From a bacterium (GTDB lineage Bacteria > Chloroflexota > Dormibacteria > Dormibacterales > Dormibacteraceae), in the NCBI GenBank assembly GCA_004299235.1, contig SCQL01000024.1:1-64000 (forward strand): a stretch of DNA of 64,000 nt, given 5' to 3'. Both the position numbers and the translations under genes were made by a program. The notes beneath the pieces are model-generated. The model saw only the letters and a list, made by a program, of their open reading frames with translations, was not told the origin of the DNA and ran no database searches. This document shows, in pieces, positions 4,381 to 11,896 of the stretch (position 1 is its first letter; each line of letters opens with the position of its first letter).

Positions 4381-6185
4381 GCGCGGATCTGCCGGAAGCC
4401 GAGCGTCGCGGTCAGCGCGCCCAGGACCAGGCCGGCCGCGATGACGGTGGCGAGCACGAGCTGGACCAGATCGGGACCGACGCCCGGCAGGACCTGGGCG
4501 TACGTGGCGGATGCCAAGTGATTGGCGAGGAGCCAGGCGCCCGCGACCGCCGCGGCCGCCAGCGCGCCGGCCAGCGCGCCGGTCGTGAGGCCCTCGACGA
4601 CGAACGGCCCGCGAAGCATCCAGCCCGCGGCGCCCAGGAGGCGCGTCACCTTCACCTCATCCCGTCGCGCCGCGGCAATGCCGCGCATCGCGTTGGCGAT
4701 CACCGCGTAAGCGACCAAAGCGAACAGCAGGACGAGCCCGCCGCCCACCGCGCCGGCGACGAGCGCGACCCGGCGGAGCCGCGAATAGGTGTCTGGATCG
4801 TAGGAGGTCGGGTACGAGGAGTCCACAGCTGGATCTCCGGTGACGGAGGCGGCGACCACTCCGACGTTCGTCACCTGCCGAACCTGGACGTCAAGGCTCG
4901 CTGGAAACGGGTTGGTCGTGCTCAGGCTCGCCAGGTTGTCGAGACCGGGATGGCTGCCCGCCTCGGCCAGCGCCGCCTCGGGGCTCAACTCGGTGACCGA
5001 AGCCACCCTGGGGTCCGCGACGAGGCGAGCCTTGAGCGCCGACACGGCATCAGGCGTCGCGCCCGCTGCCAGGTAGACGCGCACGATCGAGGCCTGCGCG
5101 GCCTGCTGGGCCGCGACGCGGTCGAGGGCAAGCCCGACCAGGGCGAGCGCCCCGCAAAAGACGAGCAGCAAGGCCATCGATCCCAGCGCCGGTGCGGTCA
5201 GTCGCAGGTCACGAGTCCAGCTGCGCAGCCCGCCGAACACCACGAGCCGGAAGCTGTTGGCGCACAGCGCAACCAGCCGGCGCCAGACCGGAAGTCGGGA
5301 CGGCCGCGCCGCGCGCTTTCGCGGCCGCTCGTGGACTGGAAGCAGGCGGCGCCACAGCGGTTGCGCGGCATGACCGCCATTGCTTTCAAGCTGCCGCGAC
5401 CCGTTCAGCAGGACCTTGCCGCTGGGGAGGCGCAGCAGGCGGCTCGAGCGGAACGTTGGCTGATGCGTGGCGACGATGACCGCGGTGCCGTTGGCGGCCG
5501 CCTCTTCGAGGAGGCGCATGACGACCTGAGCGTTGTCCTCGTCGACGCCAGCGAGGGGCTCGTCGGCGAGGAGCACTCGAGGGCGTGCGGCCAGCGCGCG
5601 GGCGACCGCCACGCGCTGCCTCTCGCCGGCTGAGAGCTGGTGCGGGTACGAGCGCCGCTTGTGCAGCAGGCCGAGGGACTCCAGCGCTTCGAGCGCCCGC
5701 TGCCTGGTGGTGCGGTATGGCAGCTGCGGAGCGCGCACCTGCAATGCCAGGACGAGGTTCTCGAGGACGTCGAGTCGCGGCAGCAGCCGCTGCTCCTGAA
5801 AGATGAAGGCGACGTCCCTGCGGATCCGTCCCAGGCCGCGGCGCCACCACCGATGCAGACCGCGGCCTTCCACCCACACCTCGCCACGGCTCGGGCGCAG
5901 CTGGCCGTGGACGAGGCGCAGAAATGTCGTTTTGCCTGAGCCGCTCGGACCCGTAACCTCGACCAACTCGCCGGGTGTGACGGTGAAGCTGATATCGCTC
6001 AGCACAGCCGTCCGGCCGAAGGATTTGGTCACCCGCGTGAGCCGGACCACCGGCTCCGTCGCCACCGCGTCGGCGGCCGGAGGGCGATGATGTGCCGCCC
6101 CGTTGTTTTTCGCGCGCATCCCATCGGTGGCCGCGCCGTGCTTCGAGACGCGCGCGCCGTCAGTGGCTACCTGTCGGTATCCCAC
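4377..6185 (-). CDS. FtsE-FtsX fusion protein (cell-division ABC transporter-like, single chain)
   Basis: One uninterrupted 602-codon frame encodes both halves of FtsEX. Residues about 46-265 are the FtsE ATPase: Walker A GPSGSGKTT (79-87), Q-loop Gln130, signature LSAGERQRVAVARAL, Walker B VLLADEP and switch His241. A basic linker (about 266-300) leads to FtsX: first TM helix about 332-352, an extracytoplasmic domain about 355-470, then three TM helices to the C-terminus, with the cytoplasmic loop AARRDEVKVTRLLGA. In most bacteria FtsE and FtsX are separate polypeptides. The start is GTG 6185; ATG at residue 23 is possible. A TACTCT hexamer at 6201-6206 could be its -10. The next gene, overlapping by 4 nt, is the likely substrate hydrolase. 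All ATPase motifs are intact. Confidence 0.93.
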   Translation of the reverse strand: MGYRQVATDGARVSKHGAATDGMRAKNNGAAHHRPPAADAVATEPVVRLTRVTKSFGRTAVLSDISFTVTPGELVEVTGPSGSGKTTFLRLVHGQLRPSRGEVWVEGRGLHRWWRRGLGRIRRDVAFIFQEQRLLPRLDVLENLVLALQVRAPQLPYRTTRQRALEALESLGLLHKRRSYPHQLSAGERQRVAVARALAARPRVLLADEPLAGVDEDNAQVVMRLLEEAAANGTAVIVATHQPTFRSSRLLRLPSGKVLLNGSRQLESNGGHAAQPLWRRLLPVHERPRKRAARPSRLPVWRRLVALCANSFRLVVFGGLRSWTRDLRLTAPALGSMALLLVFCGALALVGLALDRVAAQQAAQASIVRVYLAAGATPDAVSALKARLVADPRVASVTELSPEAALAEAGSHPGLDNLASLSTTNPFPASLDVQVRQVTNVGVVAASVTGDPAVDSSYPTSYDPDTYSRLRRVALVAGAVGGGLVLLFALVAYAVIANAMRGIAAARRDEVKVTRLLGAAGWMLRGPFVVEGLTTGALAGALAAAAVAGAWLLANHLASATYAQVLPGVGPDLVQLVLATVIAAGLVLGALTATLGFRQIRA

Positions 6186-6243
6186 CCCTTTCCACAGGAC
6201 AGAGTAGTCCTCGCCACGCTCAGGAAAACCTCAGGTTTCGATG

Positions 6244-6262
6244 ACCGCCGGCGAGGCCGGCG
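6244..6262. repeat. GC-rich hairpin in the ftsEX-regulator intergenic region
   Basis: CCGCCGGC and GCCGGCGG pair perfectly around a GAG loop in the divergent region 6186-6377. A second small inverted repeat (AAACCT/AGGTTT) lies just upstream at about 6225-6239. No T-run follows, so neither is an obvious terminator. A TATAAG hexamer near 6323 could be a -10 for the downstream regulator. Confidence 0.4.
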
Positions 6263-6377
6263 GCCCACCGGCGCCTGCGGCTTGCAGGGTGGCGCAGGTG
6301 TTCGTGGTCGTTCAGAAATCTGTATAAGGCACACTAGGAGTCCGAGAATCTGTGGTGTTATTTACACGAGGGTTGGC

Positions 6378-8177
6378 GTGAGGAGCCGGCATAAGTTGAG
6401 GGACGTGCGGATCGAAGGTGGGGGGGAGGACTCGAGCCTTGCCGCTCGGGAGCTGAGCTTTCTCGTGCGGCTCGCTCAGGCGGCGGCTTCGACGCAACGG
6501 CCGGACGAGCTGCTGGAGCTCATCATCCGCGAGGCCACGTCGGCGACGGGTACCGACGTGTGTTCGCTTTACCTGGTTACACCCCGCGGCCGCGAGCTGC
6601 TGCTGACGGCCACGAACGGGCTCAACGAAAACATGGTGGGCAAGGTGGTCATGCGGTTGGGCGAGGGCATCACGGGCTGGGTCGCTGAGAGCCGGCAGCC
6701 GACGGTGGTGCCGGATGTGAGCCAGGAGCCGCATTGGAAGTGGGTGCCGGGCCTCGACGAGGACCGCTTCCAGTCCATGCTCTCGGTGCCCATCGAATCG
6801 GGCCCCCGTCTCGTCGGCGTCCTCAACGTGCAGAGCGCCGCGAAGCGCGACTTCGACTCGGGCGACATCGACTTCCTGCGCGCCATCGCGGGCCAGGTGG
6901 CGGGGATCCTCGAGCGGAGCGAGCTGCAGCGGCGCATGGAGGCTCAGCTCGCGGAGATCCAGATGTCGCATGACATCCACGAGCGCTTCACGAAGCTCTC
7001 GCTCGAAGGCGCCGGCATCCGATCGATCCTCGAGGTTGTCGGCTCGCTGGCGGGCGGGCGGGCTGCGCTCTACTCGGCGGACGGGTACCGGGTGCGGGGA
7101 GCGGGGGAGTCGACCGACGGCATGCCCCAGCGCATTCACGTCCCCAGCCCGCTCGCCCAGGCCGGGGCCAGAGAGGTCCGGATCAACGCGGGACGACCGG
7201 CGAGGGCGCTGGACGTGGTGCCGGTGCGCGCTGGCTCCGACGTGCTGGGGCTGCTCGCGGTCGGCGTGGATGAGAAGACGGTGGATTCCCACGGCCGGCG
7301 CCGTGCCCTCGAGCACGGGTCGACGGTGCTGGCGCTGGAGCTCTCCAAGGAGCGGGCCGCGGCCGAGGTCGAGCGCCGGCTGCGCGGCGATCTGGTCGAA
7401 GAGGTCCTTGCCGGCGGACTCGAAGCTGACGAGGCCGAGCGTGTCGCGCGCCAGGCGGAGCGCTTGGGCCACAGACTCCCGCAGCGCGCGTGGGTCGTCG
7501 TCCTGGAACCGGACGACGACGACACAGAGGCGGCGCTCGGAGCGCGCGGCCAGCAGGACCGGCTGGACGGCGCGCTCAGCGGCCTGATCCGCTCCCGGCT
7601 GCCCGGCGCCCTCACCCTGGTCCGCTCCGCGTCAGCGGTGTTCCTGGTCCCCGACGAGTTGGCTTCCGACCTGCCGACGGTGGAGAAGCTCGCCGGCCAG
7701 GTCCTGGCCGCGGCCGCCCCGGTGATGAAGCCCGGCACCGCCTCGGTCGGGATCGGGAACGTGGCCAATGGTGTCGGCGAGCTCGCCCGGTCGCACATCG
7801 AAGCCCGACAGGCGCTGCGGCTCACGCGCCGCGCCGGTGGGCGCGGCCGGGTCGCGTCCTATCGCTCGCTGGGAGCGTTCCGGCTGTTGCTGGAGGTGCA
7901 GAGCCCCGACGCGCTGCGCCGCTTCGTCGACGAGCTGCTCGGCACGCTGCTGCAGTACGCGCAATCACGGGATACGCCGCTGCTGGAGACGCTCGAGGCT
8001 CTTTCGGCGGCGCGCTGGGTGCGGCGGGCGGCCGCCCGGCAGCTGGGGATCCACATCAACTCGATGAGCTACCGGGTGGAGCGGATCCAGGCGCTCACCG
8101 GCCTGCAGCTGGACGACCCGGAAACGCGAGTCGCGATCTCCATCGCCCTGCGTGCCCGCGCCATGCTCGGGATGTAG
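6378..8177 (+). CDS. GAF-domain transcriptional regulator with PucR/CdaR-type C-terminal HTH
   Basis: From GTG 6378 this is a 599-residue cytoplasmic regulator. Residues about 15-190 are a GAF sensor domain (DELLELIIREATSATGTDVCSLYLV...MLSVPIESGPRLVGVLNVQ). A middle section of about 190 residues follows, then a CdaR-like region. The C-terminus carries the PucR-family helix-turn-helix (AAARQLGIHINSMSYRVERI, then LDDPETRVAISIALRA). The longer open frame back to 6087 is antisense to ftsE and has no homology, so GTG 6378, 5 nt after GAGGG, is preferred. It converges on glnA across a shared terminator. PucR-type proteins usually control catabolic or nitrogen genes, so a role in regulating the adjacent nitrogen genes is plausible but unproven. 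Confidence 0.85.
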   Translation: MRSRHKLRDVRIEGGGEDSSLAARELSFLVRLAQAAASTQRPDELLELIIREATSATGTDVCSLYLVTPRGRELLLTATNGLNENMVGKVVMRLGEGITGWVAESRQPTVVPDVSQEPHWKWVPGLDEDRFQSMLSVPIESGPRLVGVLNVQSAAKRDFDSGDIDFLRAIAGQVAGILERSELQRRMEAQLAEIQMSHDIHERFTKLSLEGAGIRSILEVVGSLAGGRAALYSADGYRVRGAGESTDGMPQRIHVPSPLAQAGAREVRINAGRPARALDVVPVRAGSDVLGLLAVGVDEKTVDSHGRRRALEHGSTVLALELSKERAAAEVERRLRGDLVEEVLAGGLEADEAERVARQAERLGHRLPQRAWVVVLEPDDDDTEAALGARGQQDRLDGALSGLIRSRLPGALTLVRSASAVFLVPDELASDLPTVEKLAGQVLAAAAPVMKPGTASVGIGNVANGVGELARSHIEARQALRLTRRAGGRGRVASYRSLGAFRLLLEVQSPDALRRFVDELLGTLLQYAQSRDTPLLETLEALSAARWVRRAAARQLGIHINSMSYRVERIQALTGLQLDDPETRVAISIALRARAMLGM

Positions 8178-8227: not shown

Positions 8228-9673
8228 TTAAACGTCGCTGTAGAGCATGAACTCCCACGGGTGCGGCCGCAGAGCCACCTGCTCGACCTCCCGCTTGCGC
8301 TTGTAGTCGATCCAGGTGTCGATGACGTCCTTGGTGAAGACCCCGCCCTCCAGGAGGAACGCGTGGTCATTCTCGAGCGCGTCCAGGGCCTCGCCGAGCG
8401 AACCCGGCACCGACTTGATCTTGGCCTTCTCTTCGCCGTCGAGCTCGTAGATGTCCTTGTCGACCGGCTCCGGAGGCAGGATCTTGTGCTTGATCCCGTC
8501 GAGTCCGGCCATCAGGCAGGCGGCGAACGCGAGGTAGGGGTTCGCGGCCGGGTCAGGCGAGCGGAACTCGACACGCTTGGTCTTGGGGTCGGTCGAGTAC
8601 ATCGGGATCCGGACGCACGCGGAGCGGTTTCGCTTCGAATAGACGAGGTTGATCGGCGCCTCGTAGCCGGGGACCAGCCGTCGATACGAGTTGGTCGTCG
8701 GCGCGCAAATGGCAAGCAGCGCCGGCGCGTGCTTGAGCAGTCCGCCGATGTAATGCACGGCGGTCTGGCTCAGGCCGGCATAGCCGTCCGCATCGGCGAA
8801 CAGGTTCTGCCCGTCCTTCCACAGGCTCTGGTGCACGTGCATCCCGGACCCGTTGTCCTGGAACAGCGGCTTGGGCATGAAGTTCGCCACGTAGCCGTGC
8901 TGCGCCGCGACGTTCTTGATCACGTATTTGAAGACCATGAGCTTGTCGCCCATCTTGGTCAGGGAGTCGAAGCGCATGTCGATCTCAGCCTGGCCGGCCG
9001 TGCCGACCTCGTGGTGCTGGACCTCGACCCGCACGCCCGCCTCGAGCAGCTTGAGCATGATCTCGGAGCGGAGATCCTGGAACTTGTCTGTCGGCGGCAC
9101 CGGGAAGTAGCCCTCCTTGTGCCGCGGCCGGAAGGCCAGGTTGGGCTCGGAGTTCTTGCCCGAGTTCCAGATGCCCTCCTCCGAATCGATGTGGTAGTAG
9201 CCGCTGTACGCGTTCTGGTCGAAGCGGAGCGAGTTGAAGATGTAGAACTCCGCCTCCGGCCCCCAGTAGCTGACGTCGGCGATCCCCGACCGCTTGAGAT
9301 GCTCCTCCGCCTTCCTGGCGATGAAGCGCGCGTCGCGGGTGTACGGCTCGCGATTGATGGGGTCGATGACGTCACAGATGAGAAACAGGGTCTTGTGCGA
9401 TAGGCAGGGGTCGATCGTCGCGGAGTCCGGGTCCGGGATGAGCAGCATGTCGCTCTCATCGATCGCCTGGAAGCCGCGGATGCTGGAGCCGTCGAATCCG
9501 AGCCCGTTGGTGAAGCTGTCAACCTGCAGCTCACCGAGCGGCAGGCTGAAATGCTGCCACGTGCCGGGAAGGTCGATGAAGCGGACGTCGACGATCTCGA
9601 CGCCCTGGGCTTTCGCCCGCTCGATCACCTCGCGCGGGCTGGTCTTGCTGACGGACTTGGTCTGTATCGCCAT
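8228..9673 (-). CDS. glnA: Glutamine synthetase type I (GSI-beta)
   Basis: A 481-residue GlnA that condenses glutamate, ammonium and ATP to glutamine as a cytoplasmic dodecamer. Visible signatures are FDGSSIRGF, the catalytic-metal region EAEFYIF, the ATP-binding KPLFQDNGSGMHVHQS, and NRSACVRIP. The adenylylation site motif K-I-x5-V-D-K-D-I-Y is present, with Tyr409 in DKDIYEL, so it belongs to the GSI-beta class that can be adenylylated. AGGAGG (minus strand, 9678-9683) sits 4 nt before the ATG. It is divergent from amtB-glnK, grouping ammonium transport, sensing and assimilation. An intrinsic terminator follows the stop. Confidence 0.98.
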   Translation of the reverse strand: MAIQTKSVSKTSPREVIERAKAQGVEIVDVRFIDLPGTWQHFSLPLGELQVDSFTNGLGFDGSSIRGFQAIDESDMLLIPDPDSATIDPCLSHKTLFLICDVIDPINREPYTRDARFIARKAEEHLKRSGIADVSYWGPEAEFYIFNSLRFDQNAYSGYYHIDSEEGIWNSGKNSEPNLAFRPRHKEGYFPVPPTDKFQDLRSEIMLKLLEAGVRVEVQHHEVGTAGQAEIDMRFDSLTKMGDKLMVFKYVIKNVAAQHGYVANFMPKPLFQDNGSGMHVHQSLWKDGQNLFADADGYAGLSQTAVHYIGGLLKHAPALLAICAPTTNSYRRLVPGYEAPINLVYSKRNRSACVRIPMYSTDPKTKRVEFRSPDPAANPYLAFAACLMAGLDGIKHKILPPEPVDKDIYELDGEEKAKIKSVPGSLGEALDALENDHAFLLEGGVFTKDVIDTWIDYKRKREVEQVALRPHPWEFMLYSDV

Positions 9674-9683
9674 TTACCCTCCT

Positions 9684-9955
9684 GAACCTGGGATTGCCGG
9701 GCGCGCTGGGCGCCCCTCGAATTTGACGGGCTCATGGCCATCGTAGGCGCCGAGCCGGCGAGGTTCACGGTGGCACTGGCACGAATTGGAAGCCACCGTT
9801 TATGTGTGGTTGACACGAGGAGAAATATCCACAGGTCGCACGGCTCGTGCGCTCTGCACAGGCTGAAGGGGGTTGGTTCGTACTCACCACACGTTTCGGC
9901 GGGCTGGCTGCGGGCCTAGCCTCATCGTCGAGCCGTCCCGGCGGCATCCACATTC
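9684..9955. other. Divergent glnA / amtB intergenic region
   Basis: About 270 bp between the glnA and amtB ribosome-binding sites. TTGACA occurs near 9808 on the plus strand but no convincing -10 follows at 17 nt. I looked for GlnR-type GTnAC-n6-GAAAC repeats and NtrC-type GC-N10-GC dyads and saw none that were convincing. No small gene is evident. Confidence 0.4.
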
Positions 9956-9971
9956 GGAGGTGACGTCAGCC

Positions 9972-11531
9972 TTGCCCACGCCGAGTCAAGACCTGAAGCG
10001 GTTGGAATCATCCCCTCACCGGACCTCTTCCCATGGGGAGAGGGCAGTCGCGCGAGCAGTCGGGAAGCGGAGTGCGGCGCTGGCCGTCGCCGCGGGCATG
10101 GCCTTGCTCGCCGCCCTTCTGCCGGCCGGCGTCCTCGCCGACGACAGCACCGCAACCCAGGCGGCGGGCGTCGCGGCGGACACGGTGTGGGTGATCGTCG
10201 CCGCCTGCTTCGTGATGTTCATGCAGGCCGGCTTCGCCATGCTCGAGGTCGGTTTCAGCCGCATGAAGAACGTGGGCACGGTGGTCGCCAAGGTGGTGAC
10301 CAACCTGAGCGTCAGCTCGGTCGCGTACTGGGCGGTCGGCTTCGGGGTGGCATTTGGCGCGGGAGGGCTCTTCGCCGTCATCGGCGGCAGCGGTTTCTTT
10401 CCCACCTTCAGCCCGGGCTCGCAGCTGAACCTGCCGGCAATCGCCTCCAGCACCGCGCCCGCCGCCGCCAAATGGTTCTTCGAGTTCGTGTTCTGCGCCG
10501 TCTCCCTGGCGATCGTCTGGGGGACGATGCTCGAACGGACCAAGTTCATCGTCTACATCCTGTTCGGCATCCCGTTTGCCGCTTTCATCTATCCGTTGGT
10601 CAGCCACCAGCTGTTCGGCGGCGGGTTCTTGATGGCGACTCTGGGTTCGCAGGACTTCGCCGGCTCGACGGTCGTCCACCTCACCGGCGCGACGGCCGGT
10701 TTCGCGGGCCTGCTCCTGCTCGGGCCGCGCATCGGCAAGTACGAACGCGGGCGAGCCAACGCGATCCCCGGCCACAACATGCCGCTTGCCCAGCTGGGCG
10801 TTCTCATCCTCTGGTTCGGGTGGTTCGGGTTCAATCCCGGCTCCACCCTCAACGCGACCAATCTGCACTTCGCGGACGTGGTGGTGGTGACGAACCTTGC
10901 CGCCGCCGGGGGCGCGGTGGCCGCGCTCGCCACGGTCTACATGATCACCAGGACCATGGATGTCGGCATGATCGGCAACGGCGCCATCGCGGCGCTGGTC
11001 GCCATCACCGCACCGTCAGGCTATGTCGAACCCTGGGCCGCGATCGTCATCGGAGCGGTCGCGGGCGTGATCGTGGTCGTGGGCGTGCTCGCCCTCGACC
11101 GGTACGTTGACGATCCGGTCGGCGCCCTGCCGGCCCACGGCCTGGCGGGCATCTGGGGCACGCTGAGCTGCGGATTGTTCACCGTGCCGGCGCTGGCCAA
11201 GTTCAACGGCGTTGGTCAGGGCGGCCTGTTCTACACCGGCAGCTTCCACCAGCTCGGCGCGCAGGCGATCGCCGTCACCGCGTCATTCGTGACGGTGTTC
11301 GTCCTCAGCTACGGGCTGTTCTGGGTCATCAAGCGCACGGTCGGCCTGCGCGTCTCCGCGTCCGAAGAGATGGAGGGCCTGGACATCAGCGAGCACGGGA
11401 TGTGGGGTTACCCCGAGTCCTTCATGCCCGTCCCGGGCGGCGTCTACCGGCAGCCGGACACGCCGACCGTCAACCCCCACCGGGGCCACGAACCGGCGGG
11501 CGCCGCGCAACAGGAGGTGGCGTCGGCATGA
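9972..11531 (+). CDS. amtB: Ammonium transporter AmtB
   Basis: An ammonium channel of about 519 residues with an N-terminal signal segment (ALAVAAGMALLAALLPAGVL) and eleven expected membrane helices. Family signatures visible are QAGFAMLEVGFSRMKNV, FFEFVFCAVSLAIVWGTMLER, STVVHLTGATAGFAGLLLLG (the twin-His pore region) and FGWFGFNPGS. TTG 9972 is chosen because a full Shine-Dalgarno GGAGGTGA (9956-9963) lies 8 nt before it; the frame is open further upstream to 9873 without homology. The leader before the signal segment contains a palindrome (10024-10043), so ATG 10099, at the start of the hydrophobic run, is an alternative. The stop overlaps glnK by 4 nt, the classic amtB-glnK pair in which PII plugs the channel when nitrogen is sufficient. 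Confidence 0.95.
   Translation: MPTPSQDLKRLESSPHRTSSHGERAVARAVGKRSAALAVAAGMALLAALLPAGVLADDSTATQAAGVAADTVWVIVAACFVMFMQAGFAMLEVGFSRMKNVGTVVAKVVTNLSVSSVAYWAVGFGVAFGAGGLFAVIGGSGFFPTFSPGSQLNLPAIASSTAPAAAKWFFEFVFCAVSLAIVWGTMLERTKFIVYILFGIPFAAFIYPLVSHQLFGGGFLMATLGSQDFAGSTVVHLTGATAGFAGLLLLGPRIGKYERGRANAIPGHNMPLAQLGVLILWFGWFGFNPGSTLNATNLHFADVVVVTNLAAAGGAVAALATVYMITRTMDVGMIGNGAIAALVAITAPSGYVEPWAAIVIGAVAGVIVVVGVLALDRYVDDPVGALPAHGLAGIWGTLSCGLFTVPALAKFNGVGQGGLFYTGSFHQLGAQAIAVTASFVTVFVLSYGLFWVIKRTVGLRVSASEEMEGLDISEHGMWGYPESFMPVPGGVYRQPDTPTVNPHRGHEPAGAAQQEVASA
10024..10043. repeat. REP-like hairpin CCTCTTCCC/GGGGAGAGG
   Basis: CCTCTTCCCATGGGGAGAGG forms an 8-bp stem (one G-T pair) and is preceded by CCCCTCACCGGA. 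It resembles hairpins at 11905, 31293 and 44936. Here it lies in the predicted N-terminal leader of amtB. Confidence 0.5.
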
Positions 11532-11896
11532 AGATGGTGGTCGCGATCATCCGTCACGAGCGGCTGCAGGAGGTCCAGGACGTGCTGGACGAGTGCGGGG
11601 TGTCGGGCGTCACCGTCACGGAGGTCAAAGGCTGCGGCGCGCAGCGAGGCTACACGGAGAAATACCGCGGAGCCGCCGTTCACATCTCGCTGCGGCCCCG
11701 GCTCAAGGTCGAAGCGGTGATGAAGACGGAGATAGTGGCGACAGTGGTCGACAAGATGGCCGTCGCCGCACGCACGGGCGAGGTGGGCGACGGCAAGATC
11801 TTCGTCATCGGCGTCGACGACGCGGTGCGCATCAGAACGGGCGAGCACGGCCCGGAGACGGTGCAGCATGCGCAAAGAGCGATGTGGGGCCATTGA
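11528..11896 (+). CDS. glnK: PII nitrogen-regulatory protein lacking Tyr51
   Basis: A 122-residue PII protein, normal family length, starting at an ATG that overlaps the amtB stop by 4 nt. The fold signatures are kept: TVTEVKGCGAQRGYTEKYRG (T-loop base), and GEVGDGKIFVIGVDDAVRIR (ATP/B- and C-loop region). Aligned to E. coli GlnB, Tyr46 is retained but residue 51, the tyrosine that is uridylylated or adenylylated in proteobacteria and actinobacteria, is Val, in YRGAAV; residue 49 is Ala, so the cyanobacterial Ser49 phosphosite is missing too. It should still bind ATP/ADP and 2-oxoglutarate and regulate AmtB, but without covalent T-loop control at the known positions. Confidence 0.95.
   Translation: MKMVVAIIRHERLQEVQDVLDECGVSGVTVTEVKGCGAQRGYTEKYRGAAVHISLRPRLKVEAVMKTEIVATVVDKMAVAARTGEVGDGKIFVIGVDDAVRIRTGEHGPETVQHAQRAMWGH

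Follow-up and report, generated by a model that had tools for sequence, protein, structure and literature searches.

A GlnK-type PII protein without Tyr51 and with an invariant C-terminal tail in Dormibacteria, probably regulated by effector binding alone

PII proteins presumed to function unmodified have been described before, and a PII protein lacking Tyr51 in a lineage lacking GlnD is of a known kind. Radchenko and co-workers showed that Escherichia coli GlnK with a Tyr51Ala exchange continues to associate with AmtB and to dissociate from it as the nitrogen supply changes, responding to effectors alone (PMC4274968). A review reports no modified PII among the Firmicutes and most archaea, mentions no known PII modification in plants and calls glnD ubiquitous in actinobacteria (PMC4285133), and a later review cites one report of an archaeal PII modification (PMC6243067). 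For GlnK proteins of Methanococcales, contacts of Lys58 with 2-oxoglutarate and of the free C-terminus with the adenine and Lys90 have been described, and a C-terminal tag on Methanocaldococcus jannaschii GlnK1 disturbed the coordination of 2-oxoglutarate; the same work considers a free C-terminus at that spot not critical for PIIs carrying an extension (PMC8395244). Plant PIIs, with the exception of those of Brassicaceae, possess a glutamine-binding Q-loop in their C-terminal extension (PMC6243067, PMC5768801), a segment of green-plant proteins that is said to be absent from bacterial PII proteins (PMC5768801). Dormibacteria were not mentioned among the best matches of a limited search of the nitrogen literature, and the same held for Chloroflexi in a narrower search.

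We analyzed a window of 64,000 nucleotides (contig SCQL01000024.1 of assembly GCA_004299235.1) from a genome of the Dormibacteraceae, for which the assembly comprised 2.87 Mb in 100 contigs and was 96.8% complete. The window encoded a glnK-type PII protein of 122 aa (11528..11896, + strand) and, directly upstream, an ammonium transporter gene, amt (9972..11531, + strand; PF00909 353 bits, TIGR00836 over cut-off). The two genes form an amt-glnK operon in which the ATG of glnK lies in an ATGA overlap with the amt stop (11528-11531), and they were the only PII and Amt matches in the genome. The amt start was inferred to be the TTG at 9972 behind GGAGGTGA at 9956, with a GTG at 9960 as an alternative. 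The PII was full-length, covering positions 1-102 of the 102 profile positions of PF00543 with 90.8 bits against a cut-off of 25. The best 17 named matches shared 82-93% identity and belonged to metagenome-assembled genomes (MAGs) labelled Candidatus Dormibacteraeota, Dormiibacterota, Dormiibacter or Chloroflexi.

The T-loop of this PII (residues ~37-55, GAQRGYTEKYRGAAVHISL; 11636..11692, + strand) carried valine at position 51, encoded by GTT at 11678-11680, where PIIs modified by GlnD carry tyrosine. A reading made earlier from the sequence alone (hereafter the sequence-only reading) had noted Val51 within the motif YRGAAV, and the alignments confirmed it. The T-loop aligned without gaps to three solved PIIs and to 34 relatives, and the only tyrosines of the protein were Tyr42 and Tyr46, with none further downstream, so Tyr51 has been lost rather than shifted. 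Positions 49, 50 and 51 read Ala, Ala and Val. The alanine at position 49, also pointed out in that reading, was correctly identified but is not diagnostic, because Gallionella PIIs with Tyr51 read YRGAEY and thus have Ala49 as well; it appears unremarkable except in comparison to the Ser49 of the phosphorylated cyanobacterial PII, which is absent here. Compared with Gallionella YRGAEY, the exchange of Glu50 for Ala was the second real change.

Tyr46, Arg47 and Gly48 of the T-loop were kept, as were Arg9, Gln39, Gly87, Lys90, Phe92, Arg101 and Arg103 of the nucleotide/2-oxoglutarate pocket (Gly87, Lys90, Arg101 and Arg103 belonging to the ATP site), in agreement with the sequence-only reading, which had listed Tyr46 and the ATP-binding loops as retained. 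Within the pocket, Lys58 was replaced by Arg; residues 38 and 58 were Ala and Arg, compared to Arg and Lys in the Gallionella PIIs. Because of Arg58 and Ala38 the affinity for effectors may differ from that of other PIIs. A monomer model showed the PII fold with a mean pLDDT of 87.7, and a Foldseek search with this model retrieved 3n5b (E 2.6e-14) and the AmtB-bound GlnK 2ns1 (E 2.7e-12).

A second PII copy with Tyr51 taking over the main function was considered, but no second PII was found in this 96.8% complete genome, and this candidate was rejected for the genome itself. We then searched for the modifying enzymes, using PF03710 for GlnE and PF08335 for the domain common to GlnD and GlnE, in a sample of 81 Dormibacteria genomes (the genome itself, 41 of its own family and 39 of its own class; 36 of the 81 had a completeness of 90% or more and a contamination of 5% or less). 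PF03710 and PF08335 were both without a match throughout the 81 genomes, the genome itself included, bearing in mind that absence from MAGs is never absolute; both models were positive in the controls E. coli, Caulobacter and Corynebacterium (C. glutamicum). The GlnD model TIGR01693 gave one weak match in the genome itself (58.2 bits against a cut-off of 519.4, model positions 331-561; L175), in an open reading frame which we take to be a CCA-adding/HD nucleotidyltransferase. Given this score, the partial coverage of the model and the reading of the frame as a CCA-type enzyme, a diverged or cut-down GlnD at this place was rejected. In the control genomes TIGR01693 was positive in 5 of 14 and passed its cut-off in only 2; since the control seldom passes, the absence of GlnD rests on the missing PF08335 and not on the TIGR01693 cut-off. 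Modification of the window's PII by an enzyme of the GlnD type is thus very improbable, because Tyr51 was absent from all 41 PIIs of its type in the sample and PF08335 from all 81 genomes.

These 41 window-type proteins came from a total of 43 places encoding PII in 42 of the 81 genomes, all of which were read. Residue 51 was Val in 36, Ala in 4 and Ile in 1 of the 41. What had appeared as a peculiarity of a single gene in the sequence-only reading is therefore class-wide (41/41), and it also extends to 30 of 50 other genomes. The remaining two places (L011 of genome G017 and L123 of genome G051) encoded a second type of PII that had no Tyr51 either, was characterized by GHGG(E)...YRG(T/M), was likewise found at L142 and as a second copy at L110, and formed a tree group of its own (support 100/99). 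The occurrence of PII in the class was patchy, with 39 of the 81 genomes lacking it (6 of the 42 genomes of family f1, 6 of the 11 of f2, 17 of the 18 of f3 and all 10 of f4). The window-type PIIs were united in a single clade of 43 rows with a support of 99/95; the tree comprised 135 rows, which is many for its few columns, and its deep forks are untrustworthy. Over the best tree the state of Tyr51 needed at least 11 changes, 8 of which were forced by supported branches, and this indicates frequent gain or loss.

Across 45 distinct class reads, of which a few differed by the start letter alone and two belonged to the second PII type, Arg9, Gly87, Lys90, Phe92, Arg101 and Arg103 were invariant, Gln39 was present in 43, and residue 49 was either Ala or Thr. 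Arg58 was found in 36 and Ala38 in 37 of the 41 window-type proteins. An insertion of 2-3 residues after T83 and before the B-loop (GEVGDGK) was observed in 26 of the 41 (including L010, L014, L015, L022, L023, L026, L028, L045 and L048), the PII of the window not among them. The conservation of Tyr46 (45/45) and Tyr42 (43/45) in the same reads could be taken to mean that PII is modified at one of these tyrosines, or at a threonine, by an enzyme outside the GlnD and GlnE families. Tyr46 was, however, also invariant in a 35-row alignment that included PIIs from outside the class and hence marks nothing special, and we know of no candidate enzyme for such a reaction; we regard this explanation as very unlikely.

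Outside the class, we compared 50 named genomes drawn from the best matches to the PII of the window. They represent 50 of the 62 loci L050-L111, those left out being L059, L062, L067, L068, L074, L078, L082, L089, L099, L104, L108 and L111. PF08335 was present in 13 of the 20 genomes with Tyr51 compared to none of the 30 without (Fisher p 2e-7, a test that ignores kinship), and after addition of class and phylum rows in 14 of 32 with Tyr51 compared to 0 of 69 without. A comparison of independent pairs over supported branches yielded 6 contrasts, of which on average 2.2 agreed, 0 disagreed and 3.8 showed no difference (median p 0.5). The link between Tyr51 and GlnD is accordingly suggestive and not significant after correction for kinship. 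Tyr51 without GlnD was seen in 7 of the 50 named genomes and in 11 of 20 further Chloroflexota rows; as several groups keep Tyr51 without GlnD, a lineage that has no GlnD need not lose Tyr51. The combined absence of both in the class is solid, and it implies no causal order. In a phylum sample of 151 genomes, including the genome itself and some of its class, PF08335 was found in 5. One of these (G152) encoded a PF08335 protein in a frame of 883 residues just downstream of a PII with Tyr51 (L126). PF08335 was unmatched in the Actinomycetota genomes L050, L057, L093, L101 and L110 and at Coriobacteriia loci such as L051, L058, L097 and L102.

The window also encoded a type I glutamine synthetase of 481 aa, glnA (8228..9673, - strand; TIGR00653 660.1 bits against a cut-off of 429.15). 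As the sequence-only reading had claimed, this protein retained the tyrosine of the adenylylation motif, Tyr409, which was read in DKDIYEL (codon at 8447-8449, - strand). The motif D(K/A)D(I/L)YEL with Tyr409 was present in all 21 class loci whose GlnA could be read to its end, some genomes being counted under two ids. A conserved tyrosine of this kind would be expected if an adenylylating enzyme had been missed in our searches. Neither PF03710 nor PF08335 matched in the 81 genomes, though, and Tyr409 can be retained for structural reasons, making a missed enzyme extremely unlikely. The further claim that GlnA is adenylylatable and its modification merely uncoupled from PII thus finds no support; as no GlnE was found despite the conservation of Tyr409, GlnA is probably never adenylylated, its control likely lying in transcription or feedback. 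The catalytic domain of glutamine synthetase occurred at two other places in the genome, in a second gene that is read as the gamma-glutamyl-polyamine type and in a third that is cut by a contig end.

Alternatively, PII might bind glutamine synthetase directly and tune its activity without any covalent change, as GlnK1 does in Methanosarcina mazei (PMC10651883). Loci with glnA no more than 5 kb away from amt-glnK occur in both PII-bearing families, f1 and f2, and this would suit such an arrangement. The contact in M. mazei, however, needs a helical T-loop with specific residues, and one class locus of 10 kb (L044) carried amt and PII with no match to glnA, so that direct binding seems improbable.

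With regard to transcription, glnA and amt-glnK diverge from a shared promoter region (9674..9971) with conserved blocks at ~9721-9730 and ~9780-9900, identified by aligning 14 of the 20 distinct intergenic sequences, namely those 150-400 bases long. The blocks comprised ATTTGACGGG as well as CACGAA, GTGTG, ACAC(G/A)A, TCGTG and TTCGT-n5-CACACGTTT. They look like repeated sites, and their conservation among relatives fits a putative shared transcription factor. A gene for a regulator with GAF and PucR-type HTH_30 domains (6087..8177, + strand; provisional start) lies tail to tail with glnA, an arrangement seen in many, although not all, relatives of family f1, and its product is a candidate nitrogen regulator.

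The locus thus presents a PII without Tyr51, a single PII and a single Amt encoded by overlapping genes, no match to GlnD or GlnE, and an effector pocket that is kept except at position 58. In 39 of the 41 window-type class loci amt lay directly upstream of PII, while the loci L017 and L020 begin at a contig edge. Since Arg47 and the pocket residues are retained and the Tyr51Ala variant of E. coli GlnK provides a precedent, we consider it likely that this PII is an unmodified GlnK which regulates its Amt by effector binding alone, next to a GlnA without a GlnE cascade. The suggestion of signalling by ligand binding alone in the sequence-only reading is thereby strengthened by the single PII and by the absence of PF08335 from the 81 genomes. 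By homology, gating would most likely proceed as follows: with ADP bound, or with ATP in the absence of 2-oxoglutarate, as under nitrogen-rich conditions, the T-loops with Arg47 would insert into the pores of Amt and close them, and with Mg-ATP and 2-oxoglutarate bound, as under nitrogen-poor conditions, they would fold away and Amt would open. The glutamine-sensing step of GlnD would be absent from this pathway, and GlnA would be controlled by transcription and/or feedback rather than by a GlnE cascade.

The class PIIs carried a further feature in their C-terminus, where the sequence-only reading makes no mention of a ten-residue extension. Most of the PIIs compared stop at residue 112, whereas the class PIIs run ten residues further to Trp-Gly-His (residues 113-122, QHAQRAMWGH, in the window; 11864..11893, + strand; alignments of 41 class PIIs). 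His114, Trp120, Gly121 and His122 were invariant in all 41 window-type proteins, while the codons used included all four for Gly121, both for His114, both for His122 and all three stops. As synonymous codons vary and the residues stay fixed, the protein sequence of the tail is maintained by selection. The WGH end was found in none of 64 PII rows at 61 outside loci (L050-L111 without L082) and in none of 33 further rows of at least 100 residues from L124 upwards, two of which duplicated other loci (L149 being the same as L126, and L173 the same as L123 of the class). Other extensions occurred in some outside PIIs (for example L050, L055, L057, L101 and L110), ending in SGV, MPE, EPE or AGS. In the monomer model the tail was poorly placed (block means of 64 and 54 pLDDT), and the model was therefore uninformative as a guide to its position.

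The tail probably exerts its effect at the effector pocket and shapes effector binding there, because GlnK of Methanococcales ends beside ATP and Lys90 at this spot and the plant extension binds glutamine. Its presence could also point to a response to 2-oxoglutarate that departs from the ordinary one, considering that the tag on M. jannaschii GlnK1 disturbed the coordination of this effector. One might go further and propose that the tail, lying over the pocket, itself recognizes glutamine, or some other metabolite of nitrogen, and replaces the absent GlnD, in convergence with the plant Q-loop. The conservation of its four residues as protein in 41 of 41 sequences despite synonymous change would agree with this, as would the binding of glutamine through the C-terminal extension of plant PII (PMC6243067, PMC5768801) in organisms for which a review likewise knows no PII modification (PMC4285133). 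The comparison draws, however, on the place of the extension and not on likeness of sequence, and model confidence is low in this part, so that we regard a sensor function as doubtful.

The Amt C-terminus contains the motif EHGMWGYPE (11391..11417, + strand). The form HGM(W/Y)GYPE was read at 39 of the 43 class places and also outside the class (L050, L055, L057, L093 and L136), and some of the outside genomes with this motif had PIIs that likewise lacked Tyr51 and carried Arg at position 56. Since Amt and PII are paired and the PII mostly ends in MWGH where Amt holds MWGY, the tail could be a contact to Amt, or a mimic of its motif, that helps to lock the complex. The likeness amounts to three residues and was noticed after the fact; moreover, genome G163 (L136) has the Amt motif together with a tail-less PII, and Amt is unchanged in family f2, where the tail of PII is EHWGH or ERWGH. 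A role in contacting Amt thus appears quite unlikely, and we favor an action of the tail at the effector pocket of a GlnK driven by its ligands. The invariant tail marks this protein as a variant of its kind and poses the question whether a bacterial PII might carry an additional sensor of its own in the absence of GlnD.

In comparison with known systems, the GlnA of the window is like the adenylylated type I enzymes (TIGR00653) in its type and its adenylylation-site tyrosine and unlike them in that no GlnE adenylyltransferase was found in the 81 sampled Dormibacteria genomes. The PII resembles those of Firmicutes and most archaea, none of which is reported as modified in the review cited above, but the class PIIs form a separate clade with a WGH tail and, in some genera, a B-loop insertion. 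With the Q-loop PIIs of plants and green algae it shares a C-terminal extension, the likeness being one of extension and not of sequence, and the lack of a known covalent modification, although it is bacterial and encoded beside Amt. From E. coli GlnK it differs in lacking Tyr51, in that no GlnD was found in its genome, in the WGH extension and in Arg58 and Ala38, and it is like E. coli GlnK of the amtB-glnK operon, and like the Tyr51Ala variant, in its operon with Amt, its PII fold in the model, the Arg47 tip and the ATP site. As Tyr51 is lacking and both nucleotidyltransferases are absent from the sampled genomes, PII in this class is probably driven by its ligands alone, and the class may thus represent a counterpart in nature to the Tyr51Ala exchange made in E. 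coli.
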